37,582 bases of DNA from Rickettsiales bacterium (GTDB lineage: Bacteria > Pseudomonadota > Alphaproteobacteria > Methylaequorales > Methylaequoraceae), in the NCBI GenBank assembly GCA_002689325.1, contig NZFP01000022.1, forward strand, positions 1-37,582, written 5' to 3'. The stretch's first letter is position 1; each line of letters opens with the position of its first letter. The position numbers were made by a program, and so were the translations under genes. The notes under the pieces were generated by a model that made no database searches, was not told the origin of the DNA, and worked only from the letters and a program-made list of their open reading frames with translations. This document shows, piece after piece, positions 3,683 to 36,885 of this stretch.

Positions 3683-5302
3683 TTATTTAGTTAATTGCTT
3701 GCTAGCTAAAATTTGGTAATCGTGAAAATAAAGATGATCTATATTTGTTTTCAAAAAACATCTTATTGCATCCTCAGGGGATTCAACTATTGGTTCTGAA
3801 TCATTAAAGCTTGTATTTAAAATAATAGGAACGCCAGTCTTTTTTTCCCATTTCTTAATAAAGTTGTAGTACCAAAAATTATCATTTTTAGAAACGGTTT
3901 GTAGCCTCGCAGATCCATCAAAATGAACAACTGCAGGTACCAATTTCCTTTTATCTTTTTTCCATTTAATGACATGAGTCATATATGGACTTGAAATATC
4001 TCTTTCAAACCAATCAGTCACCTTTTCTTTTAAAATTGAAGGTGCAAATGGACGAAACCATTGTCTGTGTTTAACTTTTTTATTAATTATTTCTTTCATT
4101 TTTTCATTTCTAGGGTCTGCAATTATACTTCTGTTACCAAGAGCTCTACGTCCTGATTCTGAGCCACCACCAAAAACAGACACAATTTGTTGATCATCAA
4201 GCAGTTTCAAAACTTTTTCATCATCATCTTTGTAGAATGTAATAAAATCTTTAAATTTCTTTAGTGCTTTTTTTATATCATTTTCATTATATTTTCTTCC
4301 AAGATATGGTGTGAAATTGTCCTTCCATTTAATTCTTTTATTACCCAAAATCTGGTGCCAAAGAAATTGAGCAGAACCTATCGCCAAACCACTGTCATAG
4401 GGAACAGGTGGAACATAAACATTTTCAATTTGAGGAAACCAATTCTGAATTTTTCCTATCAAAACTGAATTTAATGCACAACCTCCAGCAACACACAATT
4501 TTTTTGGTTTAAACTTTTTTACAAAAAAATTTAATTCTTCTTTAACTAAATTTTCAGAAGCAATTTGAAGACTTGAGGCAATATCAAATTTTTCTTTCTC
4601 ACTAAATTGCAATTTATTAAATATTCGTTTTGCAGTTTCTTTATAATCAAGGAAGTAACTTTGGATGTCTTTCTTCTTAGTCATCATGTCCATCAATGGT
4701 TCAACATATTTAGTACTATTACTCATAGAAGCCATTGCCATTACAGTCCCAGCTTGATTACCTTTTGGAAAACCAATCGATAAGCCGAAAATTTGTGTAA
4801 CAAAATTCCAACAAACCGCCATATTGAATTTATAAAAATCATAAACTTTTATTTTTTCTATTTTTGTCCCTTCTCCCATATAAATAGTACTTGCGGTAAG
4901 AATATCTTTTTCTTCTAATCCTCCACCATCAATTGTAAGAATAAGTGATTTATCAAAATTGCTTGAAAAAAAAGCATTTGCTGCATGACACATATGATGA
5001 GATAACTCAAAATATTTTCCTTGATTATTATCGATAATTAAATTCATTAAAGATTGAGAATTTGGATCATTGCATTTTGGCCATTTTTTTTTATCCCTTC
5101 CACCAAAATTTCCTAATGTAAAAAATTTAGATTTTTTTTGTAATTCTTTAGAAGAATTTTCAAAAAAAAACTTCAGTCCATCACCGAGCTCCTCTTTTAC
5201 TCTAGTAAACCTCTCAAGTTCCTCGTGAATTAAAGGCTTTCCATTTTTTAATAAACAGTAACTGACGTCATGTCCAGATTGAAAACCTACAATCGTATCC
5301 AT
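3683..5302 (-). CDS. carbamoyltransferase, NodU/CmcH family
   Basis: GFQSGHDVSYCLLKNGK...EELERFTRVKEE; CVAGGCALNSVLIGKI; GGGSESGRRALGNRSIIADPR; WFRPFAPSIL; ILNTSFNDSEPIVESPEDAI. The ORF track extends to 5365; the family-consistent N-terminus is MDTIVGF. Confidence 0.9.
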   Translation of the reverse strand: MDTIVGFQSGHDVSYCLLKNGKPLIHEELERFTRVKEELGDGLKFFFENSSKELQKKSKFFTLGNFGGRDKKKWPKCNDPNSQSLMNLIIDNNQGKYFELSHHMCHAANAFFSSNFDKSLILTIDGGGLEEKDILTASTIYMGEGTKIEKIKVYDFYKFNMAVCWNFVTQIFGLSIGFPKGNQAGTVMAMASMSNSTKYVEPLMDMMTKKKDIQSYFLDYKETAKRIFNKLQFSEKEKFDIASSLQIASENLVKEELNFFVKKFKPKKLCVAGGCALNSVLIGKIQNWFPQIENVYVPPVPYDSGLAIGSAQFLWHQILGNKRIKWKDNFTPYLGRKYNENDIKKALKKFKDFITFYKDDDEKVLKLLDDQQIVSVFGGGSESGRRALGNRSIIADPRNEKMKEIINKKVKHRQWFRPFAPSILKEKVTDWFERDISSPYMTHVIKWKKDKRKLVPAVVHFDGSARLQTVSKNDNFWYYNFIKKWEKKTGVPIILNTSFNDSEPIVESPEDAIRCFLKTNIDHLYFHDYQILASKQLTK

Positions 5303-5451
5303 TAAAGTCATTGAAAGATTGAATTTACTTAAACTATCACTTACTGAAGGTAATACAGATAACAACTTGAAATCTCCAAAATGGGTTTTAATAATAAAAC
5401 AGCATTATTTATGCCAAAGTTTTTGAAATTAGGAAATTTCTGAGGAAAAGG

Positions 5452-15104: not shown

Positions 15105-16809
15105 ATGACAAAAAAAACTGAAATTTCAAGTATTTTAAAAAATTCAGAAAGCTTAGTCGATATATTCAACTTTTATGTAAATATAAGACCGCACCATAAA
15201 ACATTTTTTTTTAAAAAAAATAATAATTGGATATCAAATAGTTTTATTGAAACGAAAAAACGAATAGAAAAAATAAAAAATCATTTCCTAAATAATGGAA
15301 TTAAAAAGGGTGACAGAGTTTTTTTATTGTCAAACAACAGACTCGAGTGGGTTGAGTTTGATTTAGCAATAATGTCTGTTGGCGCAATAACAGTCCCAAG
15401 TTTTGTAACAAATAATCAACATGATAACACATTTATAATAAATGACTGCAAACCCAAGTTTGTGGTTCTAGAAAATGATGGTGTCTATAAAAAAAATAAA
15501 TCTTTTTTAAAAATCAGTCAAAGTAAAATAATAACTATTGAAACTTCTTATCAATTTGAAAACTATGAGAACATTTTAAAAAAAACAAAAATAGCAAAGA
15601 CTAAGAGTAGCATTATAAAAAAAAAACATATTTCCTCAATAATTTACACTTCAGGTACAACAGGAAACCCAAAAGGTGTTGTATTGACTCATGAATCAAT
15701 AATGCACAATCTTTTTGGGGCACTAGAAATCATGGATGAATTTAAGCTTGACAATGAAAGATTTATTTCTTTTTTACCTTTATCTCATTCTTATGAAAGA
15801 ATGGCAGGTTTATACTTTCCTATTTTAATTTGTGCCCAAATTTATTTTTGTAGTTCTATGGATAAATTATTAAATGAAATTAAAGAAATTAAGCCAACAA
15901 TCTTATCTGCTGTACCCAGGTTGTATGAAAATATTTTTAAAAAAATTAAATTACAAATTAACCAATCAAATCTTGTAATTTCCTTTTTTCTAAAAATTAT
16001 TTTTGAAAATCTAGACTCAAAAAAAAAAACAGAATCTAATAGAAAGTTTTCTTTCAAAAATTTTTATAAAATTAATTTTAGAAAATAAAATAAAAAACAT
16101 TTTTGGTGGAGAAGTCAAAATTTTAGTTTCTGGTGGAGCAGCACTGAACCCTGAGATTGGTATTTTTTTTAATAAACTGAACCTCACTTTACTTCAAGGT
16201 TACGGTCAAACTGAAGCTTCTCCCCTTATAAGCTGTAACAGAAAACTTTCAAATAAACCCCAAACAGTTGGACTACCTGTCCGTGATGTTAAAGTAAAAA
16301 TTTCTAATGAGGGTGAAATATTAGTGAAGGGAAAAAATTTAATGCAAGGTTATTGGAAAAAACCCACAATTACAAAAAAAACTATAATTAATAATTGGCT
16401 TCATACAGGAGATCTCGGTGAAATTGATGAAAAAGGAAGAATTATAATTACTGGAAGAAAAAAAGATCTAATTATAACATCTGGTGGAGACAATATTTCT
16501 GGTCAAAGAATAGAAAATATTTTAATGAGTTGTAATGAAATTTCTCAAGCGGTTGTTTATGGTGACAATAGACCATATTTAATTGCTTTAATAAAAATTA
16601 CTGAGGAATATAATGCTAATGATTTAAAACGAGTTTTAGAAATGATTAATAAAAACCTTAATTCCATTGAAAGAATTAGAAAATTTATTATTCTCGATCG
16701 AGAGTTTTCTTATGAAAATGGTTTGATGACTCAAACAATGAAGGTCAAAAGAAAAAAAGTTCTAGATTTTTACAAGGAACAAATAAATAAACTTTACAGG
16801 AGTTTATAG
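15105..16809 (+). CDS. long-chain acyl-CoA synthetase / AMP-dependent ligase, interrupted by a frameshift in an A11 tract
   Basis: Frame 3 to ~16029: SSIIYTSGTTGNPKGVVLTHES; frame 1 after: VKILVSGGAALNPEIG...LLQGYGQTEASPLISCN...WLHTGDLGEIDEKGRIIITGRKKDLIITSGGDNISGQRIEN. Removing one A from 16019-16029 restores a continuous frame. Confidence 0.88.
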
Positions 16810-23356: not shown

Positions 23357-23432
23357 TGGTGGGCGGAACAGGGATCGAACCTGCGACCTATTGCGTGTCG
23401 AGCAATTGCTCTCCCAGCTGAGCTATCCGCCC
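23357..23432 (-). tRNA. tRNA-Val (anticodon GAC), CCA encoded
   Basis: Reverse complement GGGCGGATAGCTCAGCTGGGAGAGCAATTGCTCGACACGCAATAGGTCGCAGGTTCGATCCCTGTTCCGCCCACCA folds into a cloverleaf; anticodon arm ATTGC-TCGACAC-GCAAT. Confidence 0.93.
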
Positions 23433-23478: not shown

Positions 23479-23494
23479 TGGCATATATATTGCT
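23479..23494 (+). promoter_or_regulatory. sigma-54 -24/-12 promoter (TGGCATATATATTGCT) upstream of the flagellar rod gene
   Basis: TGGCA-N6-TTGC, GG to GC spacing of 12 nt. Predicted +1 ~23505, next to the ATG at 23506. Confidence 0.75.
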
Positions 23495-23505
23495 CTAATC
23501 TTTTT

Positions 23506-24300
23506 ATGTTTCAAATTATCAGAACAGGAATAGATGCCTCCAATAGAGATCTTGCAATTATTTCTAATAATATAGCAAATGCTGGAACTAATGGTTTTAA
23601 GAGAAGTGAAGCACAGTTTGAGGATATTTATAGATCTCAACATAATGACTCTACGGAAAAGGCTAGAGGAATTGGAGTTAAAACAATAAAACCTAGACAG
23701 AATTTTTCGCAAGGATCATTACAGCAAACTAATGGTAGTCTTGATTTAGCAATAATGGGTGAAGGGTTTTTTGTTTTAGGAAATCCAATTGGAAGAGATA
23801 TTGGAAATCAAGGACTTAGTTTTACTAGAGATGGTTCATTTCAGTTAGATAGACTTGGTAACCTAGTTACAACTGATGGTCTTCCATTATTAGGTGATGG
23901 CCAGACTTTAATAAATATTCCTTTTAAATCAACAACAGATGAAGGTGAGGCAATCTTAACAGAAATTTCTGTAAATAATGAGGGAAAAATAGAGGCAACT
24001 TATGGTTTGGATCAAAAGAACATAGTTGGACAGGTTATTCTCGCTGATTTTGTTAATGAATTTGGTCTTCAAAATATTGGTAATGCAAGGTTTCAACAAA
24101 CTGGAGATAGTGGAGAACCCACATTTGCTGCACCTAAAGAAGAGACACTGGGAAAAATTCAAGCAGGATTTTTAGAAAGATCTAATACAGATATTACAGA
24201 TGAAATTACTCTGATGCTAAGAACACAACGAGCATTTAACGGATGCTCAAAAATACTTCAATCCGAAATTGACATTACGAAAAAACTGTCATCTAGATAA
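23506..24300 (+). CDS. flgF: flagellar basal-body rod protein, FlgF/FlgG family
   Basis: MFQIIRTGIDASNRDLAIISNNIANAGTNGFKRSEAQFEDIY; LDLAIMGEGFFVL; LSFTRDGSFQLDRLGNLVTTDG; C-terminal LERSNTDITDEITLMLRTQRAFNGCSKILQ. FlgF versus FlgG not resolved. Confidence 0.85.
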   Translation: MFQIIRTGIDASNRDLAIISNNIANAGTNGFKRSEAQFEDIYRSQHNDSTEKARGIGVKTIKPRQNFSQGSLQQTNGSLDLAIMGEGFFVLGNPIGRDIGNQGLSFTRDGSFQLDRLGNLVTTDGLPLLGDGQTLINIPFKSTTDEGEAILTEISVNNEGKIEATYGLDQKNIVGQVILADFVNEFGLQNIGNARFQQTGDSGEPTFAAPKEETLGKIQAGFLERSNTDITDEITLMLRTQRAFNGCSKILQSEIDITKKLSSR

Positions 24301-24709
24301 TTGGAATATTCCAAGAAATTGAATTAATATTTAGCTCAAACTTATCTTTGACATACAAATAACCGTCTTTATTGACCATCAAATTATCAGAAATATCTAA
24401 TTCTAGTCTAATTTTTTTTTTGTTATTTTTATTCATACCTAAAAAATTAATTAATTTTTCAATTTTTTCTATTTTATAAAAAATATTTACTACCATCAAA
24501 GGCTGATCAGTATGAATATATAAAGTATCAGGAATCTTTTTTACAATTCTTTGAATAGTAATGTTACATCTACCTCTTGAAATATTTTCAAAATTGCAAT
24601 TTAAGTTTAAGGAAACAGAACTTTTATAACTAATGTCAATGCTGTTAACTAGTAATATAATTTTGTCTATTTTTTTCCATTTATTTAATTCTTTATCAAC
24701 TAATTTCAT
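24293..24709 (-). CDS. uncharacterised protein downstream of fliA
   Basis: 138 aa, overlaps the fliA 3' end by 14 bp, same strand; no family recognised. Confidence 0.6.
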   Translation of the reverse strand: MKLVDKELNKWKKIDKIILLVNSIDISYKSSVSLNLNCNFENISRGRCNITIQRIVKKIPDTLYIHTDQPLMVVNIFYKIEKIEKLINFLGMNKNNKKKIRLELDISDNLMVNKDGYLYVKDKFELNINSISWNIPII

Positions 24710-25394
24710 TTCTAAGCTTTTCGATAATAGATTTTTTGATTTGTGAGATTCTGCCAGTGCTTATTTCAAGTATGTCTGATATTTCGTAAACATTAAGTTC
24801 TTCAACATAATATAATTGGGCTACCATTGCCTCTCTTTGATTGAGCACCTTCAAAGAATTGCGAATTTGAGTTTTTAATTCTTTATCCTGCAATTCTGCT
24901 TCAGGGTTTTTTAATTGACTAGCATATAGAACTGAGTATTCATCATAAGCTTGATCAAGGCTTTGAACATTATTTGCCTCAAAAGCTTTCTCCCAATAAT
25001 TAAATTCATCATATGTTATACCGAGACTTTTAATTAAATCATCCTTTGATGGCTCTTTTCCTTGTAGTTTTTGTAATTCAAGTCTTTTTTTTTCAAACTC
25101 TTGTTTTTTTTTTATTGTAGTACGACAAAGATTTGAATTCTTTCTTAAAAAATCTATTATCGAGCCTCTTATTCTTAATTGCGCATACTGCTGAAAAGTA
25201 ACTCCATCTTTAGGTGAATATTTTTGTGCAGCAAAAACTAAACCTTCCATTCCTTGCTGAATTAAATCCTCAATTTCAACTACCTTTTGTACTCTTCCAA
25301 AAATCTGCCAAGCAATTTTCTTAACAAGTTCTAAATTATTTTCTATCAGCTCGTTAATTGAAAGTGTTGATTTTTCAGAGTAATAATTAACCAT
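24696..25394 (-). CDS. fliA: flagellar sigma factor 28
   Basis: LVKKIAWQIFGRVQKVVEIEDLIQQGMEGLVFAAQKYSPKDGVTFQQYAQLRIRGSIIDFLRKN...LNQREAMVAQLYYVEELNVYEISDILEISTGRISQIKKSIIEKLR. Confidence 0.93.
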   Translation of the reverse strand: MVNYYSEKSTLSINELIENNLELVKKIAWQIFGRVQKVVEIEDLIQQGMEGLVFAAQKYSPKDGVTFQQYAQLRIRGSIIDFLRKNSNLCRTTIKKKQEFEKKRLELQKLQGKEPSKDDLIKSLGITYDEFNYWEKAFEANNVQSLDQAYDEYSVLYASQLKNPEAELQDKELKTQIRNSLKVLNQREAMVAQLYYVEELNVYEISDILEISTGRISQIKKSIIEKLRNEIS

Positions 25395-25401
25395 CTAAAT
25401 A

Positions 25402-26199
25402 TCAGGCTCTTTTTTTGACTTTTGACAAAAAAGTTAAACCGCCCCAGTCATTTTTTGGTGTTTCATAAATTTTTTTTGCGATATTTAAAAAACCCAGAGA
25501 TACTTCAGATTTTGGGTTTTCTGAAACAATCGGTACCCTATTAATTATGGATTTTCTTATTAAAGATGAATTTTTTACACACCCTGAATAATGAAGGTTT
25601 ACATCAAGAAATCTTGTAGTAATTTCCTGAAATTTAGAAAAAAGATCCTTGCCTTCTTTTTCATTTTCCACTTGATTAACAACAACACAGTAATTTTTAA
25701 ATGACGATTTTAAAAATATTGCTTTTAATAATGAATAAGAATCTACAAAACTTGTGGGCTCCCCCACTATTACAATTACAATTCTGTCACAGGCTGTTGC
25801 AAAAACGAGTGCATTATCTTCGGCACCCGCAGGTATATCAACTACTAGTTTAACATTTTCAATATTCTTCAAATGATCATCAATGGCATTTAAAATTGAG
25901 TATCTTTTTTTATTTTCTACATTAAGAAGATTACTAGATGCTGTACCACCTGAGATCAATTTAATACCACTTTTACATGGAATTATTACGTCAGAAATAT
26001 TTTTTTCTCCTGAAATTACATCAGAGACTGTCAGACCTGGGTTGACTCCCAGGAGAACATGAGAATTTGCCATTCCAAGATCTGTGTCTAATAAAAAAAT
26101 TTCTGAAGTTATTTTCTTTAGAGCAATTGAGAGATTAACTGCTAAAGTTGTTTTACCTACTCCACCTTTACCACTTGTTATAGCAATCGAATCAGACAT
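25402..26199 (-). CDS. flhG: FlhG (FleN/MinD-family ATPase)
   Basis: IAITSGKGGVGKTTLAVNLSIAL...LLDTDLGMANSHVLLGVNPGLTVSDVI...LVVDIPAGAEDNALVF; located between flhF and fliA. Confidence 0.9.
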   Translation of the reverse strand: MSDSIAITSGKGGVGKTTLAVNLSIALKKITSEIFLLDTDLGMANSHVLLGVNPGLTVSDVISGEKNISDVIIPCKSGIKLISGGTASSNLLNVENKKRYSILNAIDDHLKNIENVKLVVDIPAGAEDNALVFATACDRIVIVIVGEPTSFVDSYSLLKAIFLKSSFKNYCVVVNQVENEKEGKDLFSKFQEITTRFLDVNLHYSGCVKNSSLIRKSIINRVPIVSENPKSEVSLGFLNIAKKIYETPKNDWGGLTFLSKVKKRA

Positions 26200-27334
26200 C
26201 TGAAAAATTCTCTTTCATATATTTGGTAAGGGAATCCTCATTAGCTTGAATAAGCGAATCAATTATAACTTTTGTCCCAGTAACAATTCCTATTCTAGCA
26301 TTATTAAGCGCAAGAGCAGAAAACTCCTCAGCCCCAACCCAGCATTCGTCTAATTTAGTAATTGCCACCATTGGTCTAATTTCTTCAGCCTTTTTACATA
26401 TACCTTTTATCATTTCAGAATTTGATCCACTTTGTACTGTTAATATAGAACAAAATTCAAATGACGGAAATGAATTTTTAATCTCATTCATTTTTTGGAT
26501 ACTAAAATTTATATCCCCTGAAAAATCAAACACATTAATTTCTTCATTATTTTTGTAATTATCATTAAAATTAAAACTTTTGTAATCCTGGATACTAAAA
26601 CCCAAAACTCTACTGTATGATCTCAAAACATCTGAATGTCCAGTGCTCGACGATGAAACATCAATAAAATTTATTTTTTTTGTCAATTTTGCATCTGATA
26701 AATAAGAAGCGATCTTAGCTGATAAAGTTGATTTACCAGAACCTGAATTACCAAAAACAAAAATATTTTTTGACTTTAATAATCTTGAAAAATCATTAGA
26801 AGCAAGTTTCTTTGAAAGTTCTCTAAAAAATGAAACTCTTCCTTCTTCTGTTTTTTTTCCTATGAATGAATAATTAAGTTTATTAATTATCTCCGGAGAA
26901 AATTTCTCTTGTCTAAGTTTGATAGGTGTGAAATACGATAATTCATGAGAAATACCAGACTGATCTGTTATTATCATATTACTAATTTCTTTTCTCATTG
27001 AATCAATATTTTCATTAATTTTTTCAAAATATTTTTTTGAATAATCATCTGAAACTTTGTTATAGGTTTTTTTATTTAGGTATGAAATGTTATTATCAAC
27101 ATTCTTTTCAGAACTCTTTCCTTCCAAATGTTTTAAAAAGGTTTTAGAAAAAGTATTCTTTTCATCTTTCAACTTTTTATGATCTTTGATGATATTTTCA
27201 TTGTCAGAAGCTTCAATTTCAACAAATCCATTATTTTTCTTTGTCGATAATATTATTGCTTTTTCACCAAATTCATCATTTACTAAATTTATAGCGGACT
27301 TAACGTCCTTTGCCTTAAATGTTTGCGTTTTCAT
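26192..27334 (-). CDS. flhF: FlhF SRP-type GTPase, divergent
   Basis: N-terminal MKTQTFKAKDVKSAINLVNDEFGEKAIILSTKKNNG; P-loop FVFGNSGSGKSTLSAKIASYL; TKLDE. Located between flhA and flhG. Track start is 27382; MKTQTF is preferred. Confidence 0.88.
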   Translation of the reverse strand: MKTQTFKAKDVKSAINLVNDEFGEKAIILSTKKNNGFVEIEASDNENIIKDHKKLKDEKNTFSKTFLKHLEGKSSEKNVDNNISYLNKKTYNKVSDDYSKKYFEKINENIDSMRKEISNMIITDQSGISHELSYFTPIKLRQEKFSPEIINKLNYSFIGKKTEEGRVSFFRELSKKLASNDFSRLLKSKNIFVFGNSGSGKSTLSAKIASYLSDAKLTKKINFIDVSSSSTGHSDVLRSYSRVLGFSIQDYKSFNFNDNYKNNEEINVFDFSGDINFSIQKMNEIKNSFPSFEFCSILTVQSGSNSEMIKGICKKAEEIRPMVAITKLDECWVGAEEFSALALNNARIGIVTGTKVIIDSLIQANEDSLTKYMKENFSDV

Positions 27335-29450
27335 TATTTTTCTCCTTTTCTGAAGTTGATAATTTTTCTCCAACTGTAGCAATTACTTTCACTCTTTTAT
27401 TTTCAGGTAGTTCCGTGAAAGATAAAACTACAACGTCTTCTACGTGCTGACGCAATAGAATAGATAGATCTTTTCTTATTATAGGTGAGGTAACTATAAC
27501 TAAGGCGTTACTATCAGAAGAAAATTTCTCACCTATTTCTATAATTGATTGTATCATTTCCTTAGCTAAACTTGGGTCAATTAATAATCCCTCAGAACTA
27601 CTTTTTTTTGCCATTGTAATAAGCATTTGTTCAAAATCAGGATTAAAAGTAACTATGTTCAGAGGATCTTTTACATTTGAAATTTTTTGAATTAATAAAG
27701 ATGAAATAACCGGCCTAACAGCTTCTGATAGTTCATCTGGTGATAATTTTTTTTCTGAGAGGTTTGACAAAGCTTCTAAAATTTTTTTCAGGTCACTTAT
27801 TGGAACTCTCTCAACTAAAAGATTTCTTAAAATCAATGTTAGGTGATGCAGAGGAACTAATTTTGGAACAACTGATTGAACTAGTTGAGGATTAACTTTT
27901 GATAAATTATCTAATAATGATTGAACATCATCCTGACTCAACAATTCACCTGCGTACTGTAATAAAACTTGATTTAGATGTGTACCAATTACTGCCTCAG
28001 GTTCAACAATCATGTAATGATGGGATTCAGCTTTAGCAATCATGTGCTTTTCAATCCAAATTGCATCGAGTCCAAAGGATGGGTCCTTCACTTTGATTCC
28101 TTGAATTTTTTGTTGAGTTTCATCACCTGGCATTGCTAACTTCCTATCAGCATATATTTTATCTTCAGCTACTATTGTATGACCAATTTTTATTTGATAG
28201 GCATTGGCCTCTAATGACAAATCGTCTCTCACCCTAACGTTAGGAATAATGAAACCTAGATCTTTTGAAACTTGTCTTCTTATGCCAGTAATTTTGGAAA
28301 TTAATGGTCCTGCAGATTTTTTATCATTCGAGTCTACCATTGAAATAAGTCCATAACCAAGATCAAGAGAAATTGAAGAGTTATCTGAAACTTCATCCAT
28401 ATCAATTTTTCCTGGATTTTCTTCTTCAATGTCCTCTTTATTAGTTTTTGAATCAGAATCATTAGATTGTTTTGATGTATACCACGCTATAATTCCAGAA
28501 AAAAGCGCCCCAATGAGGAATAATGTATTTGGCATACCTGGGACCAATCCAAATAATAAAAGAACCGCTGAAACTGGAACCCATGCTTTTGATAAACCCA
28601 TTTGATTTGAAATTTGTCCTGCTAAATCATCATTATCTGAAGAAATTCTAGTAACAATTGTTGCAGTAGCCATCGCCAAGAGTAAAGAAGGAATTTGCGC
28701 AACAAGTCCATCACCTACAGTTAATAAGATGTAAGTTTCAGCCGATTCGGATAAACTTAAATCATGTTGCGTAGTACCAATAATGAGCCCACCTATAATA
28801 TTAATAATTAAAATTAAAATACCAGCTATCGCATCTCCTTTTACAAACTTTGCTGCACCATCCATAGCACCATAAAACTCGCCCTCTTTGGCAATTTCTT
28901 TTCTTCTCTCTTTTGCTTCTTCACTTGTTAATATTCCTGCATTTAGATCAGCATCAATTGCCATTTGCTTCCCGGGCATTGCATCTAAAGTAAACCTTGC
29001 TGCAACTTCAGAAACTCTTCCTGCACCCTTTGTAATAACAATTAAATTAATTATTACTAATATTGCAAAAACAAAAAGACCAACTGCATAACTACCTGCC
29101 ATTACAAATTCACCAAATGCTTCAATTATTCTTCCTGCTGAATCAGTTCCTGAGTGACCATTTTTTAAAATAACTCTAGTTGATGCCACGTTAAGCCCTA
29201 GTCTTAAAACAGTAGCAAATAACAATACTGTTGGAAAACTTGAAAAATCTAGTGGCCTAAAAGCTTGTAATGCCACCATTAAAACAAGTAAAGAAATAAG
29301 TAAATTTGATGTTAATAAAATATCTAGCAACCATGGACTTAAAGGTATAACCATCATGGCAATTAAAATTATAATTCCAATAGGTATGCTAAAAGTCTTA
29401 ATAAAACTTAAAAAATTCTCTTTTTCAAACTGTCGTAAAACTAAATCCAT
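27315..29450 (-). CDS. flhA: flagellar export apparatus protein FlhA
   Basis: Multi-TM; AARFTLDAMPGKQMAIDADLNAGILTSEEAKERRKEIAKEGEFYGAMDGAAKFVKGDAIAGILI. Confidence 0.97.
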   Translation of the reverse strand: MDLVLRQFEKENFLSFIKTFSIPIGIIILIAMMVIPLSPWLLDILLTSNLLISLLVLMVALQAFRPLDFSSFPTVLLFATVLRLGLNVASTRVILKNGHSGTDSAGRIIEAFGEFVMAGSYAVGLFVFAILVIINLIVITKGAGRVSEVAARFTLDAMPGKQMAIDADLNAGILTSEEAKERRKEIAKEGEFYGAMDGAAKFVKGDAIAGILILIINIIGGLIIGTTQHDLSLSESAETYILLTVGDGLVAQIPSLLLAMATATIVTRISSDNDDLAGQISNQMGLSKAWVPVSAVLLLFGLVPGMPNTLFLIGALFSGIIAWYTSKQSNDSDSKTNKEDIEEENPGKIDMDEVSDNSSISLDLGYGLISMVDSNDKKSAGPLISKITGIRRQVSKDLGFIIPNVRVRDDLSLEANAYQIKIGHTIVAEDKIYADRKLAMPGDETQQKIQGIKVKDPSFGLDAIWIEKHMIAKAESHHYMIVEPEAVIGTHLNQVLLQYAGELLSQDDVQSLLDNLSKVNPQLVQSVVPKLVPLHHLTLILRNLLVERVPISDLKKILEALSNLSEKKLSPDELSEAVRPVISSLLIQKISNVKDPLNIVTFNPDFEQMLITMAKKSSSEGLLIDPSLAKEMIQSIIEIGEKFSSDSNALVIVTSPIIRKDLSILLRQHVEDVVVLSFTELPENKRVKVIATVGEKLSTSEKEKNNENANI

Positions 29451-29540
29451 AATTTTTATACCTTAAAGTCAAAAAATTGACCATTCAAAAGCCTCGGTTT
29501 CTCTAAATTTATTAATTTTTTTTGCATATATATAAAGAGA

Positions 29541-29556
29541 TGCAAGGGCTATGCCA
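29541..29556 (-). promoter_or_regulatory. sigma-54 promoter (minus strand TGGCATAGCCCTTGCA) for flhA
   Basis: Reverse complement of tgcaagggctatgcca; GG to GC spacing of 12 nt. Predicted +1 ~29530, 80 nt before the flhA ATG. Confidence 0.8.
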
Positions 29557-29591
29557 CAAAGATCAAAAACAAAACAGGAATTTAAATAGGA

Positions 29592-29607
29592 TGGCATAAA
29601 TTATGCA
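29592..29607 (+). promoter_or_regulatory. sigma-54 promoter (TGGCATAAATTATGCA) for flgP-flgT operon
   Basis: TGGCAT-N5-ATGCA with 12-nt spacing. Predicted +1 ~29618, 31 nt before the ATG at 29649, which has an AAGGA SD. Confidence 0.75.
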
Positions 29608-29648
29608 ATGATGTCCAATAAGTTATAAATTTAATTAAGGATAAAAAT

Positions 29649-30152
29649 ATGAAAAATTTAGTATTAGTAATTTTAATCTTATTCACACAATCATGTGCAA
29701 CTAATTTTATGGAAGCTTTAAACAAGCCTAAATTAAGTAAAAATGATTTAAGTGGTGACTATTCTGCACCGACAACGCAGTTGAATAAAACCAGAGAATT
29801 ATTGGACGGTGGATCAATTACTTTTCCAACCTTAACAGCAACAGGCTATGCTGTAGTTTCAACTCAACCTGGACAAAACATTGAACAAAGAAGACTAATG
29901 GCAATCAGGTCCGCAAGAATGTCAGCAATGAGAGAATTAGCTGAACAGATACACGGCCTTAAAGTAGACAGTAATACAACAGTTATTGATCTAATGGTTC
30001 AGAATGACACATTCAGGGGTATTGTTTCTGGAGTTATCAGAGGGGCAAGAACTATAAGGATTAACCCAACCGGATCAGATACATACGAAACTGTTTTAGA
30101 GATTGACCAAGACATGGTTGCTTATTTATTTCGACAAGCACAAACACTTTAA
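29649..30152 (+). CDS. flgP: FlgP-like (LPP20-type) outer-membrane lipoprotein
   Basis: Lipobox LFTQSCATNF; TATGYAVVSTQPGQNIEQRRLMAIRSARMSAMRELAEQIHGLKVDSNTTV. Confidence 0.78.
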   Translation: MKNLVLVILILFTQSCATNFMEALNKPKLSKNDLSGDYSAPTTQLNKTRELLDGGSITFPTLTATGYAVVSTQPGQNIEQRRLMAIRSARMSAMRELAEQIHGLKVDSNTTVIDLMVQNDTFRGIVSGVIRGARTIRINPTGSDTYETVLEIDQDMVAYLFRQAQTL

Positions 30153-30164
30153 TAGGATATAAGA

Positions 30165-31343
30165 TTGAGAAGAATTGCATATAATAAGATTGACGAATTA
30201 TTAAAAGAGCTAATACTCTTTTTTTCATCTCTACTATTTTTTTTATTTTTTACAACTTATTTAGTTGCTCAAGATTTTAAGCATATAGAGGTTGTTTCTG
30301 AAGGGCGTTCTGTAATCATTGAAGGTGATGAAGAAACAGCCAAAAAAAGAGCTTTAGATGATGCTTTGTATATGGCAAGCCTTCAAGCAGGTGCAAAAGT
30401 AGATGGTTACTCTTCAGTCAATACAAACACATCCTTAAATGAAAATATATTAATTCGACCTTCATCTTCTATAAAAGATTTTGTTATCATTGAAGAAAAA
30501 AAGGATTCTACTCATTTTACTGTTAAAATAAGAGCCTTTCTTGTTAGTGTCGATGAAACACTTAACTGTAATACTCGAGAGCAAATAAATTTAAGTTATT
30601 TGAGACCCTACTTCAGAGTCTCTAGTAGTCTTCCAGCTTACAGTCAAAAACTACCTTCAATTATTTCTTCAAATATATTTAAAAATTTAAAGGAATTTAA
30701 AAACTTAAAGCTCAGAGATTTAACTGGGTTTGAGTTTAACCCTCAAAAACTTCTCAATAAACCGTTAGAATTAGACTATATATCTTTGGTAGAAGGTGAT
30801 GGTGACAATATTAAAAGTGGTGAATTTGGTTTACATCCTACAATTGACATAAGTCGTGGAAAAGGAATGCTTACAAGGTTCTCTGATGAACTAACTGTTA
30901 ATTTAAATTTAAATATTTATGAAGGGCCAAGCTTAAAAATAATTGATTCATTAAACTACTCATTCTCAATCTTTTTAGGAAATGAAACTGGCTACTCTCA
31001 TATTGATGCTTTTTATAAAGTGCCATACGATAAAATAGTAAGTTTAATAACTAAGAGTTTGTCAAAAATTCAATTCAGAGTTATTGATCAGTTAAAGTGC
31101 CAGCCTCTAGAAGCAAAAGCAGAGCTAGTCAAAGGAGTTTTGACTGTACCAATTGGACTTAATCATGGACTTGAAATTGGAAATGTAGGTTACGTGTCAA
31201 ATAATAATATTAATCACTCTATGAATGATTGGGTTGCTGTTACCGTAAAGAAAACAAGCGGAAACTTTTCAATTCTTGATATACTGAACCCATCAAATAA
31301 AAAAGAAGATTTGAGTGGAAAAATTATAAGGTTTATAAATTAA
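30165..31343 (+). CDS. flgT: FlgT-like flagellar assembly (H-ring) protein
   Basis: Signal/TM, then HIEVVSEGRSVIIEGDEETAKKRALDDALYMASLQAGAKVDG (FlgT N-terminal pattern); adjacent to flgP. TTG start assumed. Confidence 0.68.
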   Translation: MRRIAYNKIDELLKELILFFSSLLFFLFFTTYLVAQDFKHIEVVSEGRSVIIEGDEETAKKRALDDALYMASLQAGAKVDGYSSVNTNTSLNENILIRPSSSIKDFVIIEEKKDSTHFTVKIRAFLVSVDETLNCNTREQINLSYLRPYFRVSSSLPAYSQKLPSIISSNIFKNLKEFKNLKLRDLTGFEFNPQKLLNKPLELDYISLVEGDGDNIKSGEFGLHPTIDISRGKGMLTRFSDELTVNLNLNIYEGPSLKIIDSLNYSFSIFLGNETGYSHIDAFYKVPYDKIVSLITKSLSKIQFRVIDQLKCQPLEAKAELVKGVLTVPIGLNHGLEIGNVGYVSNNNINHSMNDWVAVTVKKTSGNFSILDILNPSNKKEDLSGKIIRFIN

Positions 31344-31344
31344 A

Positions 31345-31779
31345 ATGAAAAATTTCTTTGTTATATTTTTAGTTATTGTTTTTAGTTTTGAAATTAAATC
31401 CAATGAACCTTTTGTTATACTGGAATACAATAATCAAAATTTAAACGAATCTGGTACCAAAAATATAAATAAAAACAATAAGTTCATTAAAGATCACAAT
31501 TATTCGGTTAACCACAAAGTAAAAGACGGTGAATCTCTTAGTGGAATTCTTCACAAATATTATGGTAATACAGGGTTAAATATGAAAATTATAGAAATAT
31601 CTATCATAGAAATTAATAAGCATGCATTTGTAAGAGAAAATCCTCATTTTTTGTATGCTGGCAAAATTTTAAAAATCCCTTCTGTAAGCGAAATAATGAA
31701 TCTAGTAAGAAACGCACCTGACAAAAAATCCAATTCAAAATCAAGTCAAAGAAACCATATTTATTTTTATGGAAATTAG
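31345..31779 (+). CDS. LysM-domain exported protein
   Basis: VNHKVKDGESLSGILHKYYGNTGLNMKIIEISIIEINKHAFVRENPHFLYAGKILKIPS. Confidence 0.7.
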   Translation: MKNFFVIFLVIVFSFEIKSNEPFVILEYNNQNLNESGTKNINKNNKFIKDHNYSVNHKVKDGESLSGILHKYYGNTGLNMKIIEISIIEINKHAFVRENPHFLYAGKILKIPSVSEIMNLVRNAPDKKSNSKSSQRNHIYFYGN

Positions 31780-31783
31780 TAAA

Positions 31784-32485
31784 ATGAAAATATTTTTTTT
31801 TTTTATTTTTTTAAGTTTTGTATTTGACACTAAAGCTTCAAACTCCATTAATGGCAAGGATATAGAAGATTTAGCTAATGCTTGGCTAAAAAAAAATAAT
31901 CAAACTAGTAATGTTAAAATACTAAACAGCTTGAAGTACCCCTTCTGCAAAAAGGATGATTTGCTAATTACAGATATTTCGGGTTCCTTCAATCTCATTA
32001 AAATCAAATGTTTGCATCCCAACGAATGGAGTTTGATAACAAGGAATAAGTCTAAAAATAGAAAATTATTCAACTTAAAACAAAAAAATAAAAAGCAATT
32101 TAATGTTCTAACTTTAAAAAGCTCAAAATCTGCTGGATCTACTATCAATGAAGATGATTTAGTTTCTGTAAAAAAATCAATTATCATTAAAGATAACTTA
32201 GTTGAAGAAAAAAGTAAGATAGTTGGAAAAAAACTTAAAAATTCAATTTCCTCTGGTAGAGTACTGTATCATTCAAACTTTGAAAAAGATTGGTTAATAG
32301 AGAAAAATAGTATTATAGTAATAGAAAATAAAGTTGGAGGTATTACTATTAAAGAGGAAGGAATTGCCCTGAATAATGCAGATTTTATGGGAAAAATTAA
32401 GGTTAAAAACATAAAAAGTGGTAAAATTATTAACGGATATGCAAAAAATGAAAAAAAAGTTGTATTAAAAACTAAACAAAATTAA
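31784..32485 (+). CDS. flgA: flagellar P-ring chaperone FlgA
   Basis: Signal peptide; SAF-like region KSAGSTINEDDLVSVKKSII...VGKKLKNSISSGRVL...IEKNSIIVIENKVGGITIKEEGIALNNADFMGKIKVKNIKSGKIINGYA. Track start is 31769. Confidence 0.83.
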   Translation: MKIFFFFIFLSFVFDTKASNSINGKDIEDLANAWLKKNNQTSNVKILNSLKYPFCKKDDLLITDISGSFNLIKIKCLHPNEWSLITRNKSKNRKLFNLKQKNKKQFNVLTLKSSKSAGSTINEDDLVSVKKSIIIKDNLVEEKSKIVGKKLKNSISSGRVLYHSNFEKDWLIEKNSIIVIENKVGGITIKEEGIALNNADFMGKIKVKNIKSGKIINGYAKNEKKVVLKTKQN

Positions 32486-32532
32486 AGCGGTGACGTTATA
32501 TATATATAATGATATTAATTTAGGGAAAAATA

Positions 32533-32847
32533 ATGGTTGATCATATTAAAAATAATCTAAGTAATCTTGGCAGTTCTGGAAGTAGTAAAGTGAGTTCTGA
32601 ATCCAAGAAATCTAGTAGTGCACAGATTAAAGGGATTAATCATTCTCAGGCTGAACAAAAATTTGATAGTAGCGAGGTCTCCAAGTTCGTAACCAAAGAG
32701 AAAATTAAAGATATGGCAAAAGAACCTCCAATAGATCAAGCTGCAACAACGCGAATAAAAAATGCTATAGCTAATGGTTCCTATCCTATTGATTTGGACA
32801 AAATAGCCGATGCCTTATTTGATGCATATAAAGAAATGAAAGAATAG
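32533..32847 (+). CDS. flgM: anti-sigma-28 factor FlgM
   Basis: C-terminal ATTRIKNAIANGSYPIDLDKIADALFDAYKEMKE, classic FlgM region. Confidence 0.87.
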   Translation: MVDHIKNNLSNLGSSGSSKVSSESKKSSSAQIKGINHSQAEQKFDSSEVSKFVTKEKIKDMAKEPPIDQAATTRIKNAIANGSYPIDLDKIADALFDAYKEMKE

Positions 32848-32870
32848 AACTTTTTTCTTCTTTATACCTA

Positions 32871-33146
32871 ATGCAGAATGACTTGGAAAATTTACTAAAA
32901 CTCTTAGAAAAAAGTTTTAATACCAATAATTTAAGTGAACTCCAATCTCTTGAAAAGGAAATAGTTGAGATTTCTTCTCACATAAAAAAAGCAATAAATT
33001 CTCCTGAAAATATTGATAATCAGTTTAATAAAAATGATCTGGAAACATTAGAGAACTTAATTAACAAAATATCTTCAAAACAAAAGGATCAAAAAAGTTT
33101 CATATCTGACTTTCAGAATTTTGTCAAAAATAGAAAAATTAATTAA
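32871..33146 (+). CDS. flgN: FlgN-like flagellar export chaperone
   Basis: 91 aa helical protein directly after flgM; assigned mainly by position. Confidence 0.45.
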   Translation: MQNDLENLLKLLEKSFNTNNLSELQSLEKEIVEISSHIKKAINSPENIDNQFNKNDLETLENLINKISSKQKDQKSFISDFQNFVKNRKIN

Positions 33147-33182
33147 TGTTGTAGTAATAAACTTATAAAATTATGATGAGTT

Positions 33183-33608
33183 ATGGACTTTTTTCAAAAT
33201 TTTATACAGTTAGATCCTATAAACAATACTGTAAAAATTCTATTATTTATTTTTTTATTATCGTTAATTATAATAGTGTGTGCTTTTTATTTTGATTTTT
33301 TGAAAAATAAAAAAAATGAAAAAAAGATTAGTATTTTAGAAAGAGCAATTAAAGATTTAATAGAAGAGTTTCGGACATTGGAATTGTCTTTGTCTGATCA
33401 AAAGAAGATTTTAAATGACTATAAATATATTTTGGAGAGATTGGATCAAGAAATTTCAAGATTGGCAGATTCATCTCAAGGAGACTCGAACATAACAAAT
33501 GCAATAAAAATGGCTAATGAGGGTAAATCTATTGAAGAAATTTCACAGATAACAGGTATGACTAAAGAAGAAATTGAACCTATAATGAAGTATCATGGAA
33601 GAACCTAA
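33183..33608 (+). CDS. single-TM protein with DUF2802-like C-terminal helix-turn-helix
   Basis: N-terminal TM, coiled coil, then ITNAIKMANEGKSIEEISQITGMTKEEIEPIMKYHG. Confidence 0.6.
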   Translation: MDFFQNFIQLDPINNTVKILLFIFLLSLIIIVCAFYFDFLKNKKNEKKISILERAIKDLIEEFRTLELSLSDQKKILNDYKYILERLDQEISRLADSSQGDSNITNAIKMANEGKSIEEISQITGMTKEEIEPIMKYHGRT

Positions 33609-33610
33609 GG

Positions 33611-33985
33611 TCACATCTTAAAAACATGCTTACTGCATTTAACGTTTTGTATATGGTTTCTAAAATTAACATTCAATTTTGATGATTTCTTTTCAATTTT
33701 AATTGATATAAATGGGTCTTCTCGCTCAATAACCATAAAATTTTCACTGTTCTCTTTTATTTCTAGCTTATAACCTTCATTATCAATCTCTACGTCTACT
33801 AAATCTCCTATCTCATAATTTTTAATAAACACACTTTTTAGTTTAAAATAATTTTTTGAGCATTCATAAGTTTCATATTTAAACCTTAAAAATAAATCCT
33901 CACACCCGATTAATAGTGGAAAAATACACGACAAGAAAATAAAATTAAAATAATTACAACTATTCTTTTTTCTTTGAAATTTCAT
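33611..33985 (-). CDS. small putative lipoprotein, unknown
   Basis: Lipobox-like ending FLSCIFPLLIGC-E; ~100 aa beta-rich mature part; overlaps the upstream repeat protein. Confidence 0.6.
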   Translation of the reverse strand: MKFQRKKNSCNYFNFIFLSCIFPLLIGCEDLFLRFKYETYECSKNYFKLKSVFIKNYEIGDLVDVEIDNEGYKLEIKENSENFMVIEREDPFISIKIEKKSSKLNVNFRNHIQNVKCSKHVFKM

Positions 33986-35297
33986 TATCTATGATTTCCT
34001 CCCCTATTGGTTTTTGATCCTCAGATGTTTGGTCATTTTTAATTTCACCTTTCTCAGATTCATCTGAACTTACAACTTCCTCTGATTTAAGCTCACTTTC
34101 TTTTTTTTTGTTTTCATCAGAACTATTTTCTTTGGTTTCAATATCAGAATCTTTTTCTCCTGAAACTTCATTATCTTTTATTTCTTCCTTAATTTCTTTT
34201 TGACCTTCTGATGTTTGATCATTTTTTATTTCATCTTTCTTAGATTCATCAGAGTTGGAAACCTTTTCTGATTTAGGGTCACTTTCATTTTTTTTGTTGT
34301 CACCTGAATCATTTTCCTTGGTTTTTATATCAGAATCTTTTTCTCCTGAATCTGGAGATTTATCGTCATTAACCTCCTCAACTCTTTCTTGATGTCGCTC
34401 TAATAAATCCTTAATTCCTTTTTCCTCTCCACTTTTATTTTCGTCTAATTTGTTTTCTTCCTTCTCTTCATCTTTACTTACTTTTTCAGGGTCAGTTGTT
34501 GTTTTATCTTCAGCAGAGGTTTTCTCTACATCGGCCTTAGATTGACTAATTTTTTCTTCATCTTCCTTTTTAACAACTAATTCTTCTTTATTTTTTTCTT
34601 GATCAATTTTTTCTTCTTTTTCTACCTTTACCTCTTCTTTTTCTGCCTTTTTCACTTCTTTTTCTGCCTTTACCTCTTCTTTCTCTGGCTTTACCTCTTC
34701 TTTCTCTGCCTTTACCTCTTCTTTCTCTGGCTTTACCTCTTCTTTCTCTGGCTTTACCTCTTCTTTCTCTGCCTTTACCTCTTCTTTCTCTACCTTTACC
34801 TCTTCTTTTTGACCTTTTTCTTCTTTTTCATTTTTTTCATCTTTTTCTTCAGATTTTTTTTCCACCACTATTTCCGCTTTTTTTGCTTCGATTAATTTTT
34901 TTCCATCTTCTTCTTTTACATCAAGAACAATACCTTTATCTATTTGTTTACCATTTACATCTCCGGATTCTAACATTACAACGCGAATCCACTTTTCATC
35001 TGTATCTTTTTCTTCTTTTTGATCTTGAACTGAATCTTCTTTTACTGGTTTAGAAATAACTTCTTTTTTAATTTCTACTTTTCTCTCATATAAAGACTCT
35101 ATTTTTGCTCTTATTATTTTTACTCTTGCAGCAAGTAAACCAAGCCTTGTAACCTCATCTGTTTGATCATTTAGTAATTTTTTTATTATTGAATTCACTT
35201 CATCTAATGGCTTATTGCCAATTTTACTAATTATTTTATCCCTTACCTTCACTACCTCAGGATCAAGCTCAGTATTCATTGAATATTTTTCATCCAT
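33960..35297 (-). CDS. low-complexity Lys/Glu repeat protein in flagellar locus
   Basis: Globular N-terminus (MDEKYSMNTELDPEVVKVRDKIISKIG...), internal WIRVVMLESGDVNGKQIDKGIVLDVKEEDGKKLIEAKKAEIVV, heptad K(A/P/V)EKEEV repeats and two 62-aa repeats. Start moved to MDEKYS (SD-like AAAGGA upstream); track start is 35321. Confidence 0.75.
   Translation of the reverse strand: MDEKYSMNTELDPEVVKVRDKIISKIGNKPLDEVNSIIKKLLNDQTDEVTRLGLLAARVKIIRAKIESLYERKVEIKKEVISKPVKEDSVQDQKEEKDTDEKWIRVVMLESGDVNGKQIDKGIVLDVKEEDGKKLIEAKKAEIVVEKKSEEKDEKNEKEEKGQKEEVKVEKEEVKAEKEEVKPEKEEVKPEKEEVKAEKEEVKPEKEEVKAEKEVKKAEKEEVKVEKEEKIDQEKNKEELVVKKEDEEKISQSKADVEKTSAEDKTTTDPEKVSKDEEKEENKLDENKSGEEKGIKDLLERHQERVEEVNDDKSPDSGEKDSDIKTKENDSGDNKKNESDPKSEKVSNSDESKKDEIKNDQTSEGQKEIKEEIKDNEVSGEKDSDIETKENSSDENKKKESELKSEEVVSSDESEKGEIKNDQTSEDQKPIGEEIIDNEISKKKE
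33985..34356. repeat. two tandem copies of a 186-bp (62-aa) coding repeat
   Basis: atatcagaatctttttctcctgaa occurs at 34141 and 34327, spacing 186. Protein copies SGEKDSDI(E/K)TKEN...EIKNDQTSE(D/G)QK. Confidence 0.85.
34613..34812. repeat. 21-bp coding tandem repeat, ~9 units (heptad K[A/P/V]EKEEV)
   Basis: Iterations of tttacctcttctttctctg(c/g)c on the plus strand. Confidence 0.9.
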
Positions 35298-35315
35298 TTT
35301 GACTATCCTTTCTTT

Positions 35316-35331
35316 TGGCATTTAATTTGCA
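35316..35331 (+). promoter_or_regulatory. sigma-54 promoter (TGGCATTTAATTTGCA) for flgBCDE
   Basis: TGGCA-N6-TTGCA with 12-nt spacing; predicted +1 ~35342, 23 nt before the flgB ATG. Confidence 0.82.
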
Positions 35332-35364
35332 AATTCCAAACCAAATATAGAAAAAAATAAAATT

Positions 35365-35754
35365 ATGACTAATAGTATTAAACAACAATTCGAAGTTTAC
35401 AGCAACGCATTAAGAATTAGAAACAATAGAAATGAAATTCTTGCTTCTAATATAGCTAATGCAGCAACACCTAATTTTAAAGCTAGAGATTTAGACTTTG
35501 AGGTAGAATTAGCAAATGCTTTAAGTGTTGGTCCTTTAAAAACTTCTAAAGATGGACACATTGCTCTTGCATCCAAGAATCTTCCTGGAAAAGTTCAATA
35601 CAGAAAACCTCTTCACCCTTCTATGGACGGAAATACAGTAGAATTATCAATTGAGCAAACTGAATTTGCTGAAAATACAATGAGATACCAAACAACACTA
35701 AATTTTATTAATTCTAAACTAACAGGTTTAATGAGTGCAATTAGAGGCGAATAA
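35365..35754 (+). CDS. flgB: flagellar basal-body rod protein FlgB
   Basis: NEILASNIANAATPNFKARDLDFEVEL...HPSMDGNTVELSIEQTEFAENTMRYQTTL. Confidence 0.94.
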   Translation: MTNSIKQQFEVYSNALRIRNNRNEILASNIANAATPNFKARDLDFEVELANALSVGPLKTSKDGHIALASKNLPGKVQYRKPLHPSMDGNTVELSIEQTEFAENTMRYQTTLNFINSKLTGLMSAIRGE

Positions 35755-36167
35755 TGGATATTAAAAATGTATATAAAATAGCTCAAAGAGCAATGGGTGC
35801 TCAGCTTGTAAGGCTTAATGCAATCGCAAGTAATTTAGCTAATGCTGACAATATTGCCCAGAACCCTGAAGATGCCTATAAACCAGTAAAACCAGTTTTT
35901 GAAACTAAATATTTCGATTTAATCAGAAAAAGAGGCATTTCCACTGTTGATGCTGTAACTGTTCAAAAGATGGATATTGAACCAATTAAAGTATATAAGC
36001 CTGGTCATCCTATGGCTGATAATGAAGGCTTTATATATAAAGCACCAGTTGATGTTGAAGAAGAATATGTGGATATGCTCGAAGCATCAAGACAATACCA
36101 AAATAACGTAGAAGTAATATCAACAATTAAAGCTTTAATGCTTAAAACTGCAAATATGGGAAAATAA
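35754..36167 (+). CDS. flgC: flagellar basal-body rod protein FlgC
   Basis: QLVRLNAIASNLANADN...YKPGHPMADNEGFIYKAPVDVEEEYVDMLEASRQYQNNVEVI. Confidence 0.94.
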   Translation: MDIKNVYKIAQRAMGAQLVRLNAIASNLANADNIAQNPEDAYKPVKPVFETKYFDLIRKRGISTVDAVTVQKMDIEPIKVYKPGHPMADNEGFIYKAPVDVEEEYVDMLEASRQYQNNVEVISTIKALMLKTANMGK

Positions 36168-36180
36168 TCTGAGGTAAATT

Positions 36181-36885
36181 ATGAATGACATTAACAAATC
36201 ATCAGAACAATCACTTAACGCAATACTTTCAAAACTTGGAGTAAAAACTCAAGAAGAGGTTCAAAAGCAAGGAAATAAAAATACTCTAGGACAAGAGGAC
36301 TTCCTTAAACTTATGACTGCTCAGCTTCAGAATCAGGATCCTTTTGCCCCTATGGATAATGGAGATTTTATTGCACAAATGGCGCAATTTTCTACTGTGA
36401 CAGGAATTACTGAAATAAACAATAATTTAACAAATTTGGGTTCAAAGCTTGAACCTAATAGAGTAGCAACAGCTGCACAATTTCTTGGACATTCTGTTCT
36501 AGTACCTGGTCAGGTTGCTAGCCCTGATGACAAGGGAGAAATTCATGGGGTTGTTGACTTGCCGGGATATTCTAATGATGTTGGTCTAACATTTACAAGC
36601 CCATCTGGAGAAATTGTTCATACTATGAATTTAGGTTCTAATGAAAAAGGTTTAGTTGGATTTAGTTGGGTAGATATACCTGAAGACATCAAAAAAGATA
36701 AAACACGCTTAACCATTCAAGCTTACGCTGGAAATGGAGAGGCAAGTGACGGTTTGACAACAGCCGTTTATAACAAAGTTATTGCTGCATCCGCACCAAA
36801 AAATACTGAGGATGTAATTTTAGAAACAAAAGATTATGGAGAAATCTCAGCTTCTGATGCAATAAAATTTAAATCAAATGATTAA
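36181..36885 (+). CDS. flgD: flagellar hook capping protein FlgD
   Basis: LGQEDFLKLMTAQLQNQDPFAPMDNGDFIAQMAQFSTVTGITEINNNL. Confidence 0.94.
   Translation: MNDINKSSEQSLNAILSKLGVKTQEEVQKQGNKNTLGQEDFLKLMTAQLQNQDPFAPMDNGDFIAQMAQFSTVTGITEINNNLTNLGSKLEPNRVATAAQFLGHSVLVPGQVASPDDKGEIHGVVDLPGYSNDVGLTFTSPSGEIVHTMNLGSNEKGLVGFSWVDIPEDIKKDKTRLTIQAYAGNGEASDGLTTAVYNKVIAASAPKNTEDVILETKDYGEISASDAIKFKSND

Follow-up and report, generated by a model that had tools for sequence, protein, structure and literature searches.

Candidate sigma-54 promoters, FleQ-type boxes and start codons at predicted transcription starts in a Fla1-like flagellar locus of a marine alphaproteobacterial family

Rhodobacter (Cereibacter) sphaeroides is an alphaproteobacterium with a gamma-type flagellum, Fla1, whose genes are controlled by RpoN2, FleQ, FleT, FliA and FlgM (PMC7277832, PMC11999139). 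FleT has no DNA-binding domain, comes from an operon with fliEFGHIJ and acts in a complex with FleQ (PMC7277832, PMC11999139, PMC9542535), and FleQ is a DNA-binding activator without an N-terminal regulatory domain (PMC11999139, PMC9542535). In Pseudomonas, the FleQ of P. putida has the binding consensus GTCAaAAAAtTGAC (PMC6120874). In this study, we analyzed a 37,582-nucleotide contig (NZFP01000022.1 of assembly GCA_002689325.1), which is referred to as the window and carries flagellar units resembling those of both organisms. It belongs, as contig C23, to a genome of 1.31 Mb (46 contigs, 89% complete) from a family of uncultured marine Alphaproteobacteria (Methylaequoraceae) that includes the single cell AG-901-J22. 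Half of this genome was read, as stretches (GC content 29.5%), and exact promoter motifs were counted over 1.307 Mb. The locus as a whole is best explained by Fla1-type flagellar units driven by sigma-54 and a FleQ/FleT-like activator pair, with FleQ-type boxes, a FliA/FlgM step and leaderless starts, and we give this reading a probability of roughly 0.88.

A preliminary description of the window had placed four -24/-12 elements at the starts of flagellar units, and all were found at those places and on those strands. They are TGGCATATATATTGCT (23479-23494, plus strand) before a rod gene, with the ATG exactly 11 nt on; TGGCATAGCCCTTGCA (29541-29556, minus strand) before flhA-flhF-flhG-fliA; TGGCATAAATTATGCA (29592-29607, plus strand) before flgP-flgT-flgA-flgM; and TGGCATTTAATTTGCA (35316-35331, plus strand) before flgB-flgC-flgD, with 33 nt from motif to ATG. 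The 12-nt GG-GC spacing described for them holds at all four, and TGGCAY-N5-TTGCW is matched exactly at three, the flgP site having ATGC for TTGC (one mismatch).

With up to one mismatch, the window contains seven matches to this motif compared with 1.94 +/- 1.53 in shuffled sequences, none of 100 shuffles reaching seven. Genome-wide, there are 11 exact matches versus 1.9 expected from a first-order Markov model. Nine are intergenic although intergenic DNA makes up 5% of the called sequence examined, about 95% being coding (binomial P about 1e-10), and a tenth marks the true start of glnB, whose open reading frame (ORF) was over-extended by the gene caller, so that 10 of the 11 lie just upstream of a gene start. 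For the eleventh (C13:28326), which falls within an ORF called on the opposite strand, the target is uncertain. The motif is thus strongly enriched in intergenic DNA rather than present at the density of random sequence. The exact matches precede the rod gene, flhA, flgB, fliK, the flgG unit and a third flagellin gene (identified via relatives; the contig ends inside the gene), and also glnB (adjoining the glutamine synthetase gene) and the genes for a lytic transglycosylase, a FliB-like CxxCxxCC protein and a methyltransferase. Allowing one mismatch also brings in flgP, motA, flgL and an FkbM methyltransferase gene.

The four promoters recur before orthologous genes in up to 20 further family genomes with readable loci, where the -24 and -12 elements are kept and the spacer between them varies. 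The rod-gene promoter is kept in 19 family loci and is identical to that of the window in one relative (G009). A SAR116 cell retains all four, and two Rhodobacteraceae metagenome-assembled genomes (MAGs) retain the flhA-side and flgP-side elements. Because the orthologous promoters are conserved, promoter function is strongly supported.

The machinery for using such promoters is present. The gene for sigma-54, rpoN, was found in a single copy, full-length and with all three sigma-54 domains (AID, CBD and DBD); in the family it was found in 24 of 32 genomes and flhA in 27 of 32, many of these genomes being incomplete. A search for activators, as the preliminary description had proposed, gave four activator-like PF00158 matches, namely NtrC, an NtrX-like protein and two proteins encoded on one contig (G000:C20), so that the genome has rpoN together with at least one activator bearing GAFTGA. 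The latter two form the FleQ/FleT-like pair: one gene encodes an AAA+ protein without a helix-turn-helix (HTH) and is followed by fliE, fliF and fliG, and the other encodes an AAA+ protein with a Fis-type HTH (HTH_8) and without an N-terminal domain. The comparison with R. sphaeroides Fla1 made in the preliminary description is therefore apt, as the order of these genes matches fleT-fliEFGHIJ, the domain layouts are those of FleT and FleQ, and flhA, fliA and flgM likewise belong to units with sigma-54 promoters.

The FlhA sequences point in the same direction. In the FlhA tree, the family, the SAR116 cell and the two Rhodobacteraceae MAGs form one clade (100/100) on the gamma/beta side, whereas at least 22 typical alphaproteobacterial FlhAs form a separate clade of their own (100/100); the placement is that of FlhA only. 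The flhA gene of the window shows 85% identity to that of AG-901-J22, 60% to that of the SAR116 cell, 52-54% to those of the two MAGs and about 40-46% to those of the remaining, gamma- and betaproteobacterial, relatives. Since the clade stands apart from native alphaproteobacterial FlhAs, the flagellum is, as far as FlhA tells, of the horizontally acquired Rhodobacter Fla1 type. It differs from the Rhodobacter system in several ways: one rpoN was found here versus four in R. sphaeroides; one flhA was found, so that there is no sign of a second, CtrA-controlled flagellum; some 130 residues remain ahead of the AAA+ domain in the FleT-like protein; the activator genes diverge from either side of a box; and the 1.3 Mb genome is AT-rich with many predicted leaderless starts.

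The contrast between CtrA and sigma-54 control drawn in the preliminary description was too sharp, since in Caulobacter sigma-54 with FlbD acts below CtrA. CtrA control is common in flagellated Alphaproteobacteria, and ctrA could lie in the missing part of the assembly. However, a CtrA-type hierarchy running the flagellar genes, with the -24/-12 elements secondary or inactive, appears very improbable to us, given the family-wide conservation of these elements, a FlhA not of the native alphaproteobacterial type, and two OmpR-type (Trans_reg_C) regulators in the 89%-complete genome, neither of which is CtrA-like by eye.

Between the divergent flhA and flgP units lies the palindrome GTCAAAAAATTGAC (29468-29481), which fully matches the P. 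putida FleQ consensus. It stands 59 nt past the flhA promoter in the direction of that unit and precedes the flgP promoter by 110 nt. In 20 of 20 family loci, the flhA-flgP interval holds a FleQ-type box, and its distance to the flgP -24 element is 108-111 nt in 15 of 18 loci and 138-141 nt in the other three. Only nine GTCA-N6-TGAC palindromes occur in the whole genome. Besides the one at flhA, one is on the side of the fliE operon, between the divergent activator genes and 95 nt upstream of the fleT promoter (TGGTAAG-type TTGCT, kept in three genomes), and one precedes rpoN (L119, G000:C1, 11704-11717). The rpoN box is 88-92 nt before the start codon in 13 of 13 readable genomes including this one, where the distance is 88 nt. 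As in the Pseudomonas FleQ regulon, the box stands at flhA, downstream of a sigma-54 promoter, and the flhA, fliE, flgB, flgF and flgA units are under sigma-54 control (PMC6120874); placement of FleQ downstream of the flhA promoter is reported for Pseudomonas (Jyot et al. 2002, as cited in PMC6120874). The receiver-like, AAA+ and HTH domains united in Pseudomonas FleQ are here spread over two proteins and, unlike in Pseudomonas, a box before rpoN is conserved.

We infer that the FleQ-like activator would bind these GTCA-N6-TGAC boxes. The boxes are assigned to FleQ because they look like the Pseudomonas consensus, which itself leaves most FleQ peaks unexplained (PMC6120874), and another regulator might bind the palindrome instead. 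We consider this unlikely, as the box is a full consensus match adjoining flhA as in Pseudomonas and a similar one lies between the two activator genes themselves. Binding by the FleQ-like activator at the conserved box upstream of rpoN may reinforce rpoN expression, and the palindrome there suggests flagellar control of the sigma-54 gene itself.

The preliminary description had further proposed a sigma-54 to sigma-28 cascade, which is plausible but supported only in part. Family models confirm both fliA and flgM, which lie inside sigma-54 units. A variant sequence, CTAAAC...GTCGTT (TAAA-N14-GTCGTT-like), is conserved before the first flagellin gene in three genomes and, in the half of the genome scanned, occurs once in a clearly flagellar setting; the third flagellin gene is under a sigma-54 promoter.

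The unexpected part of the system, which is otherwise of a known kind, is the position of the start codons at the sigma-54 promoters. In seven genes of this genome (the rod gene, flgL, glnB, the lytic transglycosylase gene and three modification-type genes), the ATG is exactly 11 nt after TTGCT, and several of these starts are fixed by homology, namely by the N-termini of PII (MKKIEAIIKPFKLDEV) and FlgL (MKIS) and by an alignment of the rod protein that includes residue 1. With initiation some 12 nt downstream of the GC, the seven mRNAs would have the A of the AUG, or the base just before it, as their 5' end. The start codon thus coincides with the predicted +1 or +2 at roughly half of this genome's well-supported sigma-54 promoters, a spacing that predicts leaderless mRNAs. 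Among the matches listed, 49 of 111 motif-to-ATG distances in the family are at 10-12 nt (orthologues being counted repeatedly), as are 4 of 33 in other alphaproteobacterial families, and no distance peak was seen in 76 gamma/beta flagellar loci. Of 19 relatives, 18 have a rod-gene spacing of 10-11 nt, and the remaining one has 13 nt. Promoter position -11, which also matters for telling the Rhodobacter RpoN copies apart (PMC11999139), is T in all seven predicted leaderless cases and mostly A in leadered ones (Fisher P 0.003, with a hand-chosen leadered set). A genome-wide peak of -10 hexamers near start codons, as for general sigma-70 leaderlessness, was not seen. The same 10-11 nt spacing occurs at sigma-54 motifs before radical-SAM-like and TolC-like outer-membrane genes in relatives (L248, G009:C3; L249, G009:C13; L237, G004:C16).

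Such mRNAs would resemble the leaderless mRNAs of Sinorhizobium (PMC3616915) and Bradyrhizobium (PMC4842269) in having AUG at the transcription start, here a predicted one. Where the transcriptome studies consulted here gave a promoter motif for leaderless transcripts of bacteria, it was of the sigma-70 type; that of Bradyrhizobium is a sigma-70-like extended -10 element (TGnTA; PMC4842269), whereas here it is a -24/-12 element. The spacing could be real and the mRNAs nonetheless leadered, through a distal sigma-70 promoter or a sigma-54 start several bases upstream, as transcription starts cannot be read off DNA and the base at which sigma-54 transcription begins can shift by a few positions, lying 8-13 nt past the motif in Campylobacter (PMC3847290). 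However, a start a few bases upstream would give a leader too short for a Shine-Dalgarno sequence, and the -24/-12 element occupies the place where that sequence would sit. Moreover, the 10-11 nt spacing is held in unrelated genes as well as in the relatives' rod genes, while the SAR116 rod gene has a spacing of 25 nt and the Shine-Dalgarno sequence AGGAG. Leadered mRNAs are thus rather improbable. It is probable, in our judgment, that much of the sigma-54 regulon of this streamlined marine family, flagellar and nitrogen genes included, has gone over to leaderless mRNAs, the start codon being tied to the sigma-54 transcription start and promoter position -11 being T instead of A.

These observations can be joined into one scheme. 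RNA polymerase with sigma-54 (RpoN) would transcribe the flagellar units from the -24/-12 elements, and the FleQ/FleT-like pair, encoded beside fliE-fliF-fliG, would drive them as in R. sphaeroides Fla1. The DNA-binding member would recognize GTCA-N6-TGAC in the flhA-flgP interval and in the regions before the fleT-fliE operon and before rpoN; the products of fliA and flgM would come from sigma-54 units, FliA then probably serving the main flagellin gene; and transcripts that start with AUG would be translated without a Shine-Dalgarno leader. Several points weigh against parts of this scheme: the flgP site is without the TT of the -12 element; the names FleQ and FleT follow from domain layout and gene order, not from comparison with the Rhodobacter proteins; a strict FleQ box was found neither at flgB nor at the rod gene; scattered matches with 1-3 mismatches were all that the classical, E. 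coli-type sigma-28 consensus, TAAA-N15-GCCGATAA, gave, and none preceded a flagellin gene apart from a 3-mismatch match where the first flagellin gene ends; the family distances count orthologues more than once; transcription starts are taken from motif position in DNA; and leadered and leaderless mRNAs could coexist if a second promoter lay upstream. The preliminary description read the promoters, and what they probably mean, correctly; it overlooked where the start codons lie, the FleQ box and the sigma-54 control of non-flagellar genes.

The rod gene (23506-24300, plus strand; mRNA predicted leaderless) belongs to the FlgE/F/G subfamily (TIGR03506, over the cut-off) and is probably flgF. 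A tRNA-Val(gac) gene (23357-23432) lies directly upstream of its promoter and is kept there in relatives, a mechanical ORF running through the tRNA. On the minus strand are fliA, encoding sigma-28 (24696-25394; TIGR02479, 193.4 bits, cut-off 189.6); a flhG-like MinD/ParA ATPase gene (25402-26199), named from its position beside flhF; flhF (26192-27382), below the curated cut-off of the FlhF model; and flhA (27315-29450), for the Fla1-type export gate. A 23-aa ORF (29456-29527, minus strand) starts 13 nt after the flhA promoter; most relatives have a short ORF there, starting 10-13 nt (mostly 11-12) past the promoter and often ending at the flhA start. A conserved leader peptide was considered and rejected: sequence and frame vary among relatives and the FleQ-type box is the conserved part, so no regulatory peptide is claimed.

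The plus-strand unit comprises a flgP-like LPP20 lipoprotein gene (29649-30152), a flgT-like gene (FlgT_N; 30165-31343), flgA for the P-ring chaperone (31769-32485) and flgM for anti-sigma-28 (32533-32847), and farther on are flgB (35365-35754), a flgC-like rod protein gene (35754-36167) and flgD (36181-36885), also on the plus strand. Divergent from flgB is a gene for a Lys/Glu-rich repetitive protein (33960-35321, minus strand), whose putative sigma-54 promoter, TGGTTTGGAATTTGCA (35328-35343, minus strand; degenerate, two mismatches), overlaps the flgB promoter and shares AATTTGCAAATT with it; the overlapping element is conserved together with the flgB promoter, AATTTGCAAaTTC.AAACCA being kept in 18 loci. 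A possible further sigma-54 promoter, TGGCATAAATAATGCT (5401-5416, minus strand; one mismatch), is 35 nt before a carbamoyltransferase gene (3683-5365, minus strand). An AMP-binding (acyl-CoA synthetase-like) gene at 15105-16809 is split into ORFs 15105-16088 and 16324-16809, possibly by a frameshift or an assembly error. Elsewhere in the genome, a rod/hook-type gene in the flgK position (L136, G000:C46, 5471-10843) encodes about 1790 residues, far above the usual FlgK length.

In the open-access literature, we found no description of this system in work around AEGEAN-169, SAR116 and flagella, none of leaderless sigma-54 mRNAs, and none of a borrowed flagellum on sigma-54 promoters combined with start codons at predicted mRNA starts. 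The locus shows that Fla1-type flagella also occur outside Rhodobacter, in small-genome ocean bacteria, here with a compact circuit (one rpoN found, NtrC and a FleQ/FleT-like pair) that looks self-reinforcing through the FleQ-type box before rpoN. If the leaderless starts are true, activator-dependent transcription would feed directly into leaderless translation, and a family-conserved leaderless sigma-54 class would link enhancer-dependent transcription to this mode of translation. It would also help in reading sigma-54 targets from DNA alone in uncultured bacteria.

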